This document shows positions 26,491 to 30,270 of a stretch of DNA of 64,000 nt, in pieces. This DNA comes from an uncultured Pelagibacteraceae bacterium. Lineage in GTDB: Bacteria; Pseudomonadota; Alphaproteobacteria; Pelagibacterales; Pelagibacteraceae. The notes beneath the pieces are model-generated. The model saw only the letters and a program-made list of their open reading frames with translations. It made no database searches and had not been told where the DNA came from. Within the stretch, counting starts at the first letter, position 1, and every line of letters begins with the position of its first letter. Both the position numbers and the translations under genes were made by a program. The stretch is from positions 1 through 64,000 of the forward strand of contig CACFAI010000002.1 of NCBI GenBank assembly GCA_902564265.1, in the 5' to 3' direction.

Positions 26491-26519
26491 TTGACTTTGT
26501 TATATTATAACACTAAGAT
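26491..26519 (+). promoter_or_regulatory. Promoter of the DsrE-like gene
   Basis: TTGACT (26491-26496) and TAAGAT (26514-26519) are -35 and -10 hexamers with an exact 17-bp spacer. The spacer is almost completely filled by a perfect palindrome (26498-26512), and a second imperfect copy begins at the last base of the -10 element. Transcription should start near 26526. Confidence 0.7.
26498..26512. promoter_or_regulatory. Zur-box-like operator 1 (DsrE-like gene)
   Basis: TGTTATATTATAACA is a perfect 7-1-7 palindrome located between the -35 and -10 hexamers. It matches the general form of alphaproteobacterial Zur sites and is nearly identical to the sites between znuA and znuC in this window. 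A bound repressor would block RNA polymerase. Confidence 0.68.
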
Positions 26520-26533
26520 GTTATATTGTAACA
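26519..26533. promoter_or_regulatory. Zur-box-like operator 2 (DsrE-like gene)
   Basis: TGTTATATTGTAACA is the same 15-base palindrome with one mismatched pair, covering the expected transcription start. Its centre is 21 bp (two helical turns) from that of operator 1, so two dimers would sit on the same DNA face. Confidence 0.63.
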
Positions 26534-26554
26534 ATCAATTAAAAAGGAGAAAAA

Positions 26555-26932
26555 ATGAAAGTCGCGTATGTATTTAGAAATAATATGGCAAGTACTTATC
26601 AATTAAGTACGATGATACTGCCCCAATTAGAGGATAACAAACACCTTGTGAATGTTTTAGGAATGTTTTTCTTTGATGATAATCTTTTTTGCCTTCAAAA
26701 AGGAAACCCAATAGGTGAAAGATTAGCAAAAATTGCAAAAGAAAAAGGTATGTTATTAATGGTCTGTGACCAGTGCGCTGTTAGAAGAGGTTTAGCAGAT
26801 GGTACGTTTGAACAATGTGGTAGTGGAGAAGTTAAAGCAAAAGGTTTGGTAGATGGTGTTGTTGCTGGTTGTTTTCCACAATTGTATACAGCTCTAGGTT
26901 CAAACCCACCAGATCAAGTAATAACTCTTTAA
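26555..26932 (+). CDS. DsrE-like protein under predicted Zur control
   Basis: This 125-aa protein resembles DsrE/DsrF/YchN-type proteins, small Rossmann-like oligomers in sulfur relay. It has no signal peptide. A C-x-x-C-A-x-x-R-G segment (MVCDQCAVRRGL) resembles the family active-site loop, and further cysteines occur in FEQCGSG and VAGCFPQ. A good ribosome-binding site (AAGGAG, 26544-26549) precedes the ATG. The promoter holds two Zur-like palindromes, and znuA lies just downstream on the other strand. A role in zinc limitation, for example handling Zn-thiolate or sulfur groups, is inference; the substrate is unknown. Confidence 0.8.
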   Translation: MKVAYVFRNNMASTYQLSTMILPQLEDNKHLVNVLGMFFFDDNLFCLQKGNPIGERLAKIAKEKGMLLMVCDQCAVRRGLADGTFEQCGSGEVKAKGLVDGVVAGCFPQLYTALGSNPPDQVITL

Positions 26933-26941
26933 GGAAAATAT

Positions 26942-27967
26942 TTAACAGCCTTGAAACGACTTAGACATATTCTTTATAAGATTAAAATATAAATCTTTAC
27001 CGGGGTTTAAAGTTGCTCCAAGTGGATCAATTACTCCGGTATTGATATTCATGTCTTTTGCTACTGCATTAATTATATCTGGATTAAATTGTGGTTCTGA
27101 AAAAACACAAGTTACCTTTTCATGTTCGATTATTTCTCTTATTTCAGATAATTGTTCTGCCCCAGGTAGCACATCTGTATTTACTGTAAATGCTCCTAAA
27201 ACATTTACTTTAAATCTCTTTTCAAAATACTGGTAAGCGTCGTGAAACACTATAGATTTAAAATCCTTATTTAATTCAGACTTAACTTGTTTTACTAATT
27301 TGTCTAAATCTTTGTACGCCTTTTTCAAATTCTCTTTATAAATCGACTCATTTGCTTGGTCATTTTCTATTAAATGTTTAGCCATTTCTTTTAAGATTTT
27401 TTTAGCGTTTAAAGGATCTAACCATATGTGTGGGTCAAACTCGCCGTGTGCATGACCCTCATGACCGTGATCGTCATGTCCGTCTTCTTTATGCTCGTCT
27501 TTATCATGATCGTGATCGTCATGACCATCTTCCTTTTTAGCATGATCATCATGATCGTCATGATCGTCTTCTTTATGTCCATGATCATCATGTCCATCAA
27601 AAATATTTCTTTCTCTAAATTTCAATTTCTTAATTCCCTTAATTTCCATTAATTCAATTTTTTCAGCTTTTTTTGCAATCGATCCAAGAGGTTTAACTAA
27701 AAAACTCTCAATATCCTCACCTACCCAAAATATTAAATCTGCTTCTTGAAGCATTTTTGCATGAGATGGCTTCATAGCAAAACCGTGAGGTGATGCATAA
27801 CCACTAACGATTAAATCAGGCTTTCCTACTCCATCCATTAAATAGCTCGCAAGTGAATGAATAGGTTTAATTGATGCTACAACTTTGATTTCAGCATTAG
27901 CTTGTGAAAAATAAGTTAAAAATGATAAGAATGTGAATATATAAGTTAATTTTTTGAGTTTAAGCAT
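26942..27967 (-). CDS. znuA: Zinc ABC transporter substrate-binding protein ZnuA
   Basis: ZnuA captures zinc in the periplasm. The 341-aa protein has a signal peptide (cleavage near SQANA-EI), the N-terminal VVASIKPIHSLASYLM motif, a His/Asp-rich loop of about 50 residues (roughly residues 123-175, DNA 27443-27601) and the zinc-site segments DPHIWLDPLNAK, IVFHDAYQYF and CVFSEPQFNP. The charged loop is typical of ZnuA and may hold extra zinc. It is divergent from znuC; the 42-bp gap carries Zur-like palindromes. Confidence 0.95.
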   Translation of the reverse strand: MLKLKKLTYIFTFLSFLTYFSQANAEIKVVASIKPIHSLASYLMDGVGKPDLIVSGYASPHGFAMKPSHAKMLQEADLIFWVGEDIESFLVKPLGSIAKKAEKIELMEIKGIKKLKFRERNIFDGHDDHGHKEDDHDDHDDHAKKEDGHDDHDHDKDEHKEDGHDDHGHEGHAHGEFDPHIWLDPLNAKKILKEMAKHLIENDQANESIYKENLKKAYKDLDKLVKQVKSELNKDFKSIVFHDAYQYFEKRFKVNVLGAFTVNTDVLPGAEQLSEIREIIEHEKVTCVFSEPQFNPDIINAVAKDMNINTGVIDPLGATLNPGKDLYFNLIKNMSKSFQGC

Positions 27968-27977
27968 AATAATATTT

Positions 27978-27992
27978 TGTTATAATATAACG
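27978..27992. promoter_or_regulatory. Zur-box-like operator A (znuA/znuC)
   Basis: TGTTATAATATAACG is a 7-1-7 palindrome with one mismatch at the outermost pair. It includes TATAAT (27981-27986), a candidate -10 for znuC, so a repressor would cover the promoter. It lies 11 bp from the znuA start codon. Confidence 0.68.
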
Positions 27993-27995
27993 TTA

Positions 27996-28010
27996 TGTAA
28001 TAATATAACA
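27996..28010. promoter_or_regulatory. Zur-box-like operator B (znuA/znuC)
   Basis: TGTAATAATATAACA is the same motif with one mismatched pair. Its last base is the A of the annotated znuC ATG. Its centre is 18 bp from that of operator A. Confidence 0.62.
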
Positions 28011-28777
28011 TGGTTGAGTCAAGTATTAAAATGAGTTTAAAAAACAAAACATTAGTCAAATTAAACAATGCTGGTTTTCGAATAAATGAAAAATGGTTAG
28101 TACAAGGTGTATCTTTACACGTAGAAAGAGGTAAAATTATTACTTTAATTGGGCCAAACGGATCTGGAAAAAGTACAACAGCAAAAATTGCTTTAGGTAT
28201 TTATAAAAAAATTGAGGGTCAAGTTGAAAAATACACAAATAAAATTGGATATGTTCCCCAAAAGATTTCAATAGATTGGACGTTACCTTTAAGAGTTAAA
28301 GACTTTATGTCATTAACTGAAAGTCTCGAAGAGGAAAAAATTAACGAAGCATTATCCTTAACTGGTGTAATACATCTAAAAGATAAAAATTTAGGAGACT
28401 TATCAGGTGGAGAATTTCAGAGAGTTTTATTAGCAAGAGCTATTTCAAAAAAACCAGAATTACTTGTTCTTGATGAACCAGTACAAGGTGTGGATTTCAC
28501 TGGAGAAATTGCTTTATATGAATTAATCAAAAAAATATCTGAGGAGTTAAATTGTGGAATTCTATTAATTTCACATGACTTACACACAGTTATGAGTGCT
28601 ACAGATCATGTCGTTTGTTTAAATGGTCATGTTTGTTGTTCTGGATCCCCAATCGATGTTGCACAAAATAGTGAATATAAAGCTTTATTTGGAGATCAAG
28701 CTTCACAAACTCTATCAATTTACGAACATAAACACGATCATATTCATACAAGCGAAGGGAAAATTAAAAAGAATTAA
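28010..28777 (+). CDS. znuC: Zinc ABC transporter ATP-binding protein ZnuC
   Basis: This 255-aa ATPase has Walker A GPNGSGKST, the signature LSGGEFQRVLLARA, Walker B LLVLDEPVQGVD and a His-switch ISHDLHTVM. The C-terminus carries a short His-containing tail (HKHDHIH), common in ZnuC. The start at 28010 overlaps operator B; an alternative ATG at 28031 would shorten it by 7 residues and put the operator wholly upstream. It is followed by znuB one base after its stop. Confidence 0.94.
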   Translation: MVESSIKMSLKNKTLVKLNNAGFRINEKWLVQGVSLHVERGKIITLIGPNGSGKSTTAKIALGIYKKIEGQVEKYTNKIGYVPQKISIDWTLPLRVKDFMSLTESLEEEKINEALSLTGVIHLKDKNLGDLSGGEFQRVLLARAISKKPELLVLDEPVQGVDFTGEIALYELIKKISEELNCGILLISHDLHTVMSATDHVVCLNGHVCCSGSPIDVAQNSEYKALFGDQASQTLSIYEHKHDHIHTSEGKIKKN

Positions 28778-28778
28778 A

Positions 28779-29582
28779 ATGCTTGATGACTTTTTTATAA
28801 GAGCTTTATTTGCGGGTATTGGAATTGCCTTAGTTACAGGTCCTCTTGGATGCTTTGTAGTTTGGAGACGATTATCTTATTTTGGAGATACTTTAGCTCA
28901 TTCTGCTCTATTAGGAGTGACAATCGCATATTCTTTTGAATTAAATATTGCAATATCTGTTTTTGTAATTTCAGCCATTATAGCTTTACTACTAGTTAAT
29001 CTTCAAAAGAAAACTAACCTACCAGGAGATGCATTGTTAGGACTTTTAGCGCATTCTTCTTTAGCTATCGGTCTTGTTGTCATTGGTTTTTTATCATTTA
29101 TTAGATTTGATGTTATGGGATTATTATTTGGAGATATATTGGCAGTATCTTTAAATGATATAATAATTATATGGATAGGTGGAGCCATTATATTATTAGT
29201 TTTAAGGTTAATTTGGAAATCTTTATTTGCATCTACTGTCAATTACGAATTAGCTGAAGCAGAGGGTCTTAATCCTGACAAAGCTAAAGCAATATTCACA
29301 ATTTTAATGGCCGCGATAATCGCTATTTCTATCAAAATGGTAGGATTATTATTAATTACTGGAATGCTTATCATACCGGCAGCAATGGCAAGAAATATTT
29401 CAAATAGTCCACAACAAATGATTCTTTTTTCAGTAATTGGTAGTTTATTGTCAGTTATAATTGGATTGTTTACATCTTTAGAATTCAATACAGCTTCAGG
29501 ACCTTCTATTATCGCTGCTTCTTTATTTTTGTTCATTCTTTCGTTACTTAAAATAAAACAATCCATCAAATTGAAAAATTAG
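28779..29582 (+). CDS. znuB: Zinc ABC transporter permease ZnuB
   Basis: The start is set at the ATG 28779, one base after the znuC stop, giving 267 residues beginning MLDDFFIRALFAGIGIALV; a longer reading from 28623 would run inside znuC. The protein has about eight membrane segments and the ABC-3 family features GPLGCFVVWRRLSYFGDTLAHSA and ITGMLIIPAAMAR. It forms the channel of the ZnuABC importer. Confidence 0.94.
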   Translation: MLDDFFIRALFAGIGIALVTGPLGCFVVWRRLSYFGDTLAHSALLGVTIAYSFELNIAISVFVISAIIALLLVNLQKKTNLPGDALLGLLAHSSLAIGLVVIGFLSFIRFDVMGLLFGDILAVSLNDIIIIWIGGAIILLVLRLIWKSLFASTVNYELAEAEGLNPDKAKAIFTILMAAIIAISIKMVGLLLITGMLIIPAAMARNISNSPQQMILFSVIGSLLSVIIGLFTSLEFNTASGPSIIAASLFLFILSLLKIKQSIKLKN

Positions 29583-29589
29583 TGAGAAA

Positions 29590-29997
29590 ATGGTAAAATT
29601 GAATATGCAAAGACAGCAAAACTTAACAAAAAATCAAAAAATTGTTTTAGATATTATTGAAAAATCTACAGAACCATTAAAAGCATATTCAATATTATCG
29701 AATGTTAAGAAGAAAGGGATTAACGCCCCTCCTCAGGTCTACAGAGCTTTAGATAAATTAGTGGATATGGGAAAAATACACAAAATTGAAAGCAAAAATG
29801 CTTTCGTTGCCTGTCAAAATTCAAACTGTAAAGTTTCAAAAGCTGCGGCATTTTCAATCTGCGAAAGCTGTGAGGAAGTAACAGAAATTGATAATTCAAA
29901 AATATCAAAATACTTAAGTAGTTTTGCAGATAAAATCGGCATGAAATACAAAAAATATAATCTTGAATTTTTTGGTCTGTGCAAAAAGTGTAAGTAA
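29590..29997 (+). CDS. zur: Fur-family zinc uptake regulator Zur
   Basis: This 135-aa Fur-family protein has an N-terminal winged helix (APPQVYRALDKLVDMGKIHKIES) and a structural zinc site formed by Cys91/Cys94 (ICESCEEV) and Cys131/Cys134 (GLCKKC). By comparison with E. coli Zur, the sensory site keeps His64, Cys75 and Glu99. The next usual His is absent, and Cys80 is a possible replacement. Its place behind znuB implies autoregulation through the znuC operators. It should bind the TGTTATA palindromes. Confidence 0.88.
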   Translation: MVKLNMQRQQNLTKNQKIVLDIIEKSTEPLKAYSILSNVKKKGINAPPQVYRALDKLVDMGKIHKIESKNAFVACQNSNCKVSKAAAFSICESCEEVTEIDNSKISKYLSSFADKIGMKYKKYNLEFFGLCKKCK

Positions 29998-30048
29998 ATA
30001 TTAAGAAATAATCAAAAAATCTATATATTGCAAATTAAGGAGGAAAAT

Positions 30049-30270
30049 ATGTTTGTAAAAAAATATCTTAAATGGATAAGCACATTTCTAGTTTTGTTTG
30101 GCATTCTTCTAACTAATCTAAATATATATCCACTTAATATATATTTTCATGGATTAGGAGTTGTTGGATGGACAGTCGCTGGGTTTATAAGTAAAGATAA
30201 AGCAATAATGACTAACTTTGGATTACAAGTTCCTTTATTTTTAGTTGGAATTTATAAAGTTATAATTTAA
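30049..30270 (+). CDS. Small two-helix inner-membrane protein, unknown function
   Basis: The start is chosen at 30049 because a near-perfect ribosome-binding site (AAGGAGG, 30037-30043) lies 5 bp before it; a 7-codon upstream extension lacks one. The 73-aa protein has about three hydrophobic stretches (residues 8-25, 30-47, 55-72) and a short cytoplasmic-looking loop SKDKA. The family is not recognised. It lies 51 bp after zur on the same strand and may be part of the same transcript. It shares TTAA with the phoB stop. Confidence 0.72.
   Translation: MFVKKYLKWISTFLVLFGILLTNLNIYPLNIYFHGLGVVGWTVAGFISKDKAIMTNFGLQVPLFLVGIYKVII

Follow-up and report, generated by a model that had tools for sequence, protein, structure and literature searches.

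A DsrE-like gene of marine bacteria is predicted to belong to the Zur regulon and to act under zinc limitation

What is a gene for a DsrE-like protein doing beside the zinc importer of a SAR11 bacterium, behind a promoter that carries what look like Zur boxes? SAR11 bacteria are described as minimizing their metal uptake, high-affinity zinc uptake being an exception (PMC4771312). The initial annotation of the window, by which we mean the whole 64,000-nucleotide stretch of DNA that was analysed, proposed that this gene is repressed by Zur together with the importer and serves an undescribed zinc-limitation function, with zinc-thiolate chemistry or the replacement of a zinc-dependent sulfur carrier as candidate activities. 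The features of the locus are as follows.

26491..26519, plus strand: sigma-70-like promoter of the DsrE-like gene (TTGACT at 26491-26496, 17 bp, TAAGAT at 26514-26519), a consensus match read from the sequence
26498..26512, no strand: predicted Zur operator 1, a perfect TGTTATA-T-TATAACA palindrome (TGTTATATTATAACA) that occupies the promoter spacer and is conserved upstream of orthologues
26519..26533, no strand: predicted Zur operator 2 (TGTTATATTGTAACA), one mismatch, beginning 21 bp after operator 1
26544..26549, plus strand: ribosome-binding site AAGGAG, read from the sequence
26555..26932, plus strand: DsrE-like gene, encoding a SaoD/DsrE family protein (NF040913) of 125 aa with Cys46, Cys71, Cys74, Cys88, and Cys106 (199.8 bits, cut-off 152)
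26942..27967, minus strand: znuA, zinc ABC transporter substrate-binding protein with a His/Asp-rich loop (ZnuA 273.7 bits, cut-off 268)
27978..27992, no strand: predicted Zur operator of the divergent znuA/znuC promoters, one mismatch, with a site at the matching position in unlinked SAR11 genomes
27996..28010, no strand: second predicted Zur operator of the divergent znuA/znuC promoters, one mismatch
28010..28777, plus strand: znuC, ATP-binding subunit
28779..29582, plus strand: znuB, permease (the ORF is also open from TTG 28623)
29590..29997, plus strand: zur candidate, Fur-family repressor (FUR 38.5 bits)

The promoter and the two palindromes 21 bp apart that the initial annotation described are real, as are the two further motif copies that it placed between znuA and znuC. 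Operator 2 is imperfect in the window, and its counterpart is perfect in two close relatives (L008 and L027); L078-L082 have two sites with the identical 21-bp spacing. ZnuA, ZnuC, and ZnuB were confirmed as products of the neighboring genes, and the nearby gene taken for zur encodes a Fur/Zur-family protein whose best NCBIfam match is the Zur model, at 84.2 bits and thus below the cut-off of 167. It is followed by a gene for a DUF6552 small membrane protein (window 30028-30270), and in L054 and L058 the DsrE-like gene itself is placed between zur and the DUF6552 gene.

With up to three mismatches allowed, the motif occurs 14 times in the window against 16 expected, which is the chance level in such AT-rich DNA, and therefore near-perfect sites alone count. 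At one mismatch or fewer, the whole 917-kb assembly contains four sites: two at the DsrE-like gene and two at znuA/znuC. A control with the motif pattern reversed gave 19 matches in total across ten relatives, about 2 per 1.2-Mb genome, so that a chance match within ∼100 bp of a given gene has a probability of about 1e-4. The core of the palindrome agrees with GTTA-N5-TAAC, which has been reported as a conserved Zur motif of many proteobacteria (PMC4176598), and the placement of two boxes across the −35 and −10 elements has precedents in yciC and in znuA of S. coelicolor (PMC6103462).

Across marine genomes the palindrome stays with the gene. All 24 marine gene contexts have a 7-1-7-type palindrome upstream of the DsrE-like gene (within 160 bp; at least one member of each context departs from one of four motif types by no more than one base, and every member by no more than two), and in each context only 0 to 2 of 400 dinucleotide shuffles of the upstream regions reached this level. 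A neighboring znu gene is missing from most of the contexts, in which the neighbors are aldehyde dehydrogenase/DUF779 genes, sugar ABC transporter/ribokinase genes, and others. The initial annotation had proposed a search for the motif upstream of SAR11 orthologues; this was run, and the palindrome is present there, also in genomes where the gene is unlinked to the importer. In 10 SAR11 carriers of this unlinked kind, sites with at most one mismatch fall at the DsrE-like gene and at znuA/znuC, with three strays. The only SAR11 carrier in which a COG0523 gene adjoins znuA (G052; L020/L110) has kept the palindrome in front of a frameshifted DsrE-like gene; the frameshift lies in a homopolymer run and may be a sequencing error.

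Outside SAR11 the palindrome differs, and the one at the zinc genes differs along with it (single-cell and metagenome bin labels are given as in the records, and some may be wrong). In one alphaproteobacterial group, TGTAATAnTATTACA occurs twice at the DsrE-like gene, 21 bp apart, and 3 of 5 genomes have it again at znuA/znuC. In a Rhodospirillaceae-like group the palindrome at the DsrE-like gene is TGCAATAnTATTGCA, and in most members COG0523 follows the gene directly. Three of five genomes repeat TGCAATAnTATTGCA at another locus, between an outer-membrane protein gene and a Fur-zrgA cluster that encodes a Fur-family protein, a membrane protein, and ZrgA (Pfam E 1e-27). One Marinimicrobia genome carries a TTGCAA-type palindrome both at the DsrE-like gene and between COG0523 and a Fur gene, and Verrucomicrobia-labelled genomes have this type of palindrome at the DsrE-like gene and also before a FAD oxidoreductase gene of the same cluster. 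In more distant lineages the palindrome was not seen upstream of the gene, though the motif types sought may not be the Zur motif of those lineages.

Because these motifs link the DsrE-like gene to znuABC, zrgA, and COG0523 genes, we infer that the regulator is the zinc-responsive Zur. Judged from sequence comparison, Zur control of the gene is highly likely, and phylogenetic footprinting that spans unlinked genomes and several lineages lends strong support to the proposed coregulation with the importer.

Gene neighborhoods, which are independent of any motif, provide a second line of evidence for a link to zinc limitation. Distant homologues in Planctomycetes, Gemmatimonadota, Ignavibacteria, Thermomicrobium, and Thermus adjoin COG0523 GTPases, HisI, ZnuABC, or AztC/AztD-like genes. 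A COG0523 GTPase (Pfam cobW plus CobW_C) lies immediately downstream of the DsrE-like gene in L059 and L064, HisI (PRA-CH) and COG0523 are neighbors in L068, and WD40 and COG0523 genes are neighbors in L089 and L094. The order in Thermomicrobium is Fur, metal ABC importer, DsrE-like gene, and in Thermus the gene lies next to genes for AztC/AztD-like proteins and for a ZigA-like fragment. No zinc neighbor was seen beside the copies from Acidobacteria and T. thermophilus HB8. The zinc-limitation function put forward in the initial annotation thus gains support from COG0523, HisI, metal importer, and AztC/AztD-like neighbors in other phyla, and a role of the DsrE-like gene in zinc limitation is, on this genomic evidence, likely, with somewhat less assurance than Zur control itself.

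Several uncharacterized genes share these neighborhoods. The zinc clusters labelled Verrucomicrobia (L035, L065, L068) have a gene for a 147-aa protein of unknown family (L068:5082-5522) placed between HisI and COG0523, and in other bins of marine alphaproteobacteria the gene that directly follows the DsrE-like gene encodes a DUF1636 protein (L069:1194-1598, L070:2053-2451). In L032 (4411-5550) the gene directly downstream encodes a His-rich signal-peptide protein of ∼380 aa (EGHEGHDHGAHGG); proteins of this type, which have no Pfam match and look by eye like outer-membrane barrels, also occur in L010, L011, L030, L033, and L036 (SAR11) and are perhaps zinc-responsive outer-membrane proteins. 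In the Rhodospirillaceae-like genomes (L124:101-1435, L126, L128), a Cys-free, His-rich protein of ∼445 aa, also with no Pfam match, is encoded divergently from the Fur-membrane protein-ZrgA cluster across the shared palindrome. A common origin of the SAR11 and Fur-zrgA-locus His-rich proteins was considered and found no blastp similarity in its favor.

The protein itself is a member of NF040913, whose curated cut-off it clearly exceeds. This family is named "SaoD/DsrE family protein" (DsrE_rel_ELSE), a name that carries no function. The second-best NCBIfam match is SaoD (NF040732; 121.6 bits, under its cut-off of 169), and Pfam DsrE is borderline (22.6 bits, cut-off 22.7). The earlier label "DsrE-like" therefore stands with respect to the fold, while NF040913 is the precise family. 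Orthologues are 71 to 100% identical across phyla, which is high for a protein of 125 residues, and an alignment of 39 diverse orthologues has Cys71, Cys74, Cys88, Cys106, His30, Asp41, Asp42, Glu55, and Asp72 invariant. The Cys71-Asp-x-Cys74 motif is universal; distant Thermus and haloarchaeal homologues keep Cys71, Cys74, and Cys106, and Cys88 is gone in haloarchaea. A confident AlphaFold2 model (pLDDT 93.7) has YchN, DsrE, and TusD as its best matches among solved structures (E 5e-6 to 3e-5, Z 11.2 to 11.5; for DsrE, Foldseek E 7e-6 and VIA Z 11.3), and the protein is small, predicted to be cytoplasmic, with a predicted DsrE/TusD/YchN fold. In the model, Cys71 sits at the junction of the fourth strand and a helix, and it aligns with the active Cys of DsrE (VVCVAA motif) in a weak profile alignment (E 0.57).

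NF040913 is rare, with proteins over the cut-off in 15 of 297 genomes of the order and in 1 of 396 other Pseudomonadota, and no viral carriage of the DsrE-like gene was found in IMG/VR (alignment A1). ZnuA occurs in 15 of 16 SAR11 carriers and also in 243 of the 297 genomes overall, which makes co-occurrence with ZnuA uninformative as evidence. The COG0523 C-terminal domain (CobW_C) is absent from 14 of 15 SAR11 carriers searched, and COG0523 is thereby ruled out as an obligate partner.

The explanation that we favor is that the DsrE-like gene belongs to the Zur regulon and that its product is most plausibly a zinc-thiolate buffer or chaperone; taken as a whole, this account has in our estimate an even chance of being right. 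When zinc is replete, zinc-loaded Zur dimers would occupy both palindromes, and with them the −35/−10 spacer and the start region, and keep RNA polymerase out. Under zinc shortage Zur would come off the DNA, and the DsrE-like gene would be induced along with znuA and znuCB-zur. Its product may then bind zinc as a thiolate and pass it on during starvation, acting as a buffer or a chaperone, either in parallel to COG0523 GTPases or in place of COG0523 where it is missing, as in most SAR11. The four Cys residues invariant in 39 orthologues are compatible with a zinc metallochaperone. That the protein handles zinc as a thiolate is a plausible proposal with slightly under even chances, and we prefer it to a role as a backup sulfurtransferase.

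A backup sulfurtransferase is nonetheless the main rival, though an unlikely one; the gene would still be controlled by Zur, and the protein would be a persulfide sulfurtransferase sustaining sulfur transfer when a zinc-dependent acceptor such as SufU fails. In keeping with this, the protein has a DsrE/TusD fold and a Cys in the active-site position, and SAR11 carriers have a SufU with the CGD...GC...KC ligand set, which exceeds the family cut-off in 6 of 8 of them. Haloarchaeal homologues, moreover, adjoin rhodanese/MST-like, beta-propeller, and YeeE genes, and the rhodanese/MST and YeeE neighbors point to sulfur rather than zinc and keep a sulfur role in play. (On haloarchaeal plasmids L174:104-5384 and L173, the set consists of YeeE/YedE, two beta-propeller proteins, a rhodanese/MST-like protein, and the SaoD/DsrE protein that lacks Cys88.) However, no SufU above the cut-off was found in any of 15 marine carriers outside SAR11, and most of these 15 share the operator logic; a SufU backup is therefore rejected as the general role. 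DsrC/TusE was detected in the E. coli control and in none of 24 carriers searched, on which grounds membership in a Tus/Dsr relay is rejected as well, and no suf or tus gene adjoins the DsrE-like gene in the contexts read. The missing SufU and DsrC/TusE weaken the suggestion in the initial annotation that the protein replaces a zinc-dependent sulfur carrier.

It is more doubtful still that the product is a thiol-based detoxifier, capturing or reducing organometals or thiophilic metals (Cd, Hg, Cu) that get into the cell on derepression of the importer. Its SaoD cousins belong to a system described as Sec-assisted organometallic (SAO; PMC13188914), and the protein combines a CxxC motif with more invariant Cys residues; its neighbors in the contexts read, however, are zinc-uptake, zinc-chaperone, and zinc-enzyme genes and not mer- or ars-like genes. 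A Fur-family regulator for Mn or Fe could in principle bind the palindromes, making the response one to a metal other than zinc, and the sub-cut-off Zur score of the local Fur-family protein leaves room for this; we consider it very unlikely, since the sites are common to znuABC, the zrgA-containing cluster, and COG0523 and their core agrees with the proteobacterial Zur motif. That the palindromes serve znuA or arose by chance, with the DsrE-like gene a bystander because it adjoins znuA in the window, can be dismissed, as the gene keeps a palindrome of its own in more than 20 contexts, most without znu nearby, is contradicted as a bystander by the unlinked genomes, and lies beside a znuA/znuC pair with separate operators.

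Zinc-thiolate handling under Zur control thus remains our preferred reading, and the DsrE-like gene very probably helps these bacteria to cope with zinc scarcity, to which it had not been linked before. To our knowledge, no Zur target other than the importer had been predicted in SAR11. No link of NF040913 or of DsrE proteins to Zur or zinc limitation was found in a search of 5.39 million open-access papers, and within the open-access papers searched the function is, as first annotated, undescribed. What is new here is the predicted membership of the gene in the Zur regulon, and possibly its biochemistry. For NF040913, a family with no assigned function, the comparative evidence points to zinc limitation across unrelated bacteria and offers a testable physiological role, and in ocean metatranscriptomes the gene could serve as a molecular marker for zinc stress. 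If zinc-thiolate handling is true, the few zinc-allocation proteins would gain a member with a new fold. More tentatively, a DsrE-fold protein might have turned into a zinc-thiolate chaperone or buffer that, next to the COG0523 GTPases, makes up a third class of proteins allocating zinc in the cytosol, present in several bacterial phyla, with related haloarchaeal genes, and a stand-in for COG0523 in streamlined ocean bacteria.

Among known systems, NF040913 is the closest, since the protein matches it over its full length and is a member. SaoD is related over the full length as well, but the protein falls below the SaoD cut-off and no other sao gene was seen near the DsrE-like gene. DsrE and TusD (of the DsrEFH and TusBCD sulfur relays) and YchN share the fold, and Cys71 lines up with the active Cys of DsrE; identity to these proteins is 17 to 20%, however, and the DsrE-like protein has the extra invariant residues Cys74 and Cys106 (and Cys88 in most). 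Unlike dsrEFH and tusBCD, the gene is single, with E-F-H or B-C-D partners missing from its neighborhood and DsrC/TusE from its carriers. A search for related terms in the main text of an earlier account of Zur regulon genes (znuABC, COG0523, HisI2, and zrgA; Haas 2009, PMC2770081) found no DsrE-type protein listed. The DsrE-like gene shares operators and gene clusters with genes of this kind. The zinc metallochaperones AztD and COG0523 (ZigA, ZNG1-like) are among its gene neighbors and resemble it in the kind of job proposed, and their folds are unrelated to that of the DsrE-like protein.
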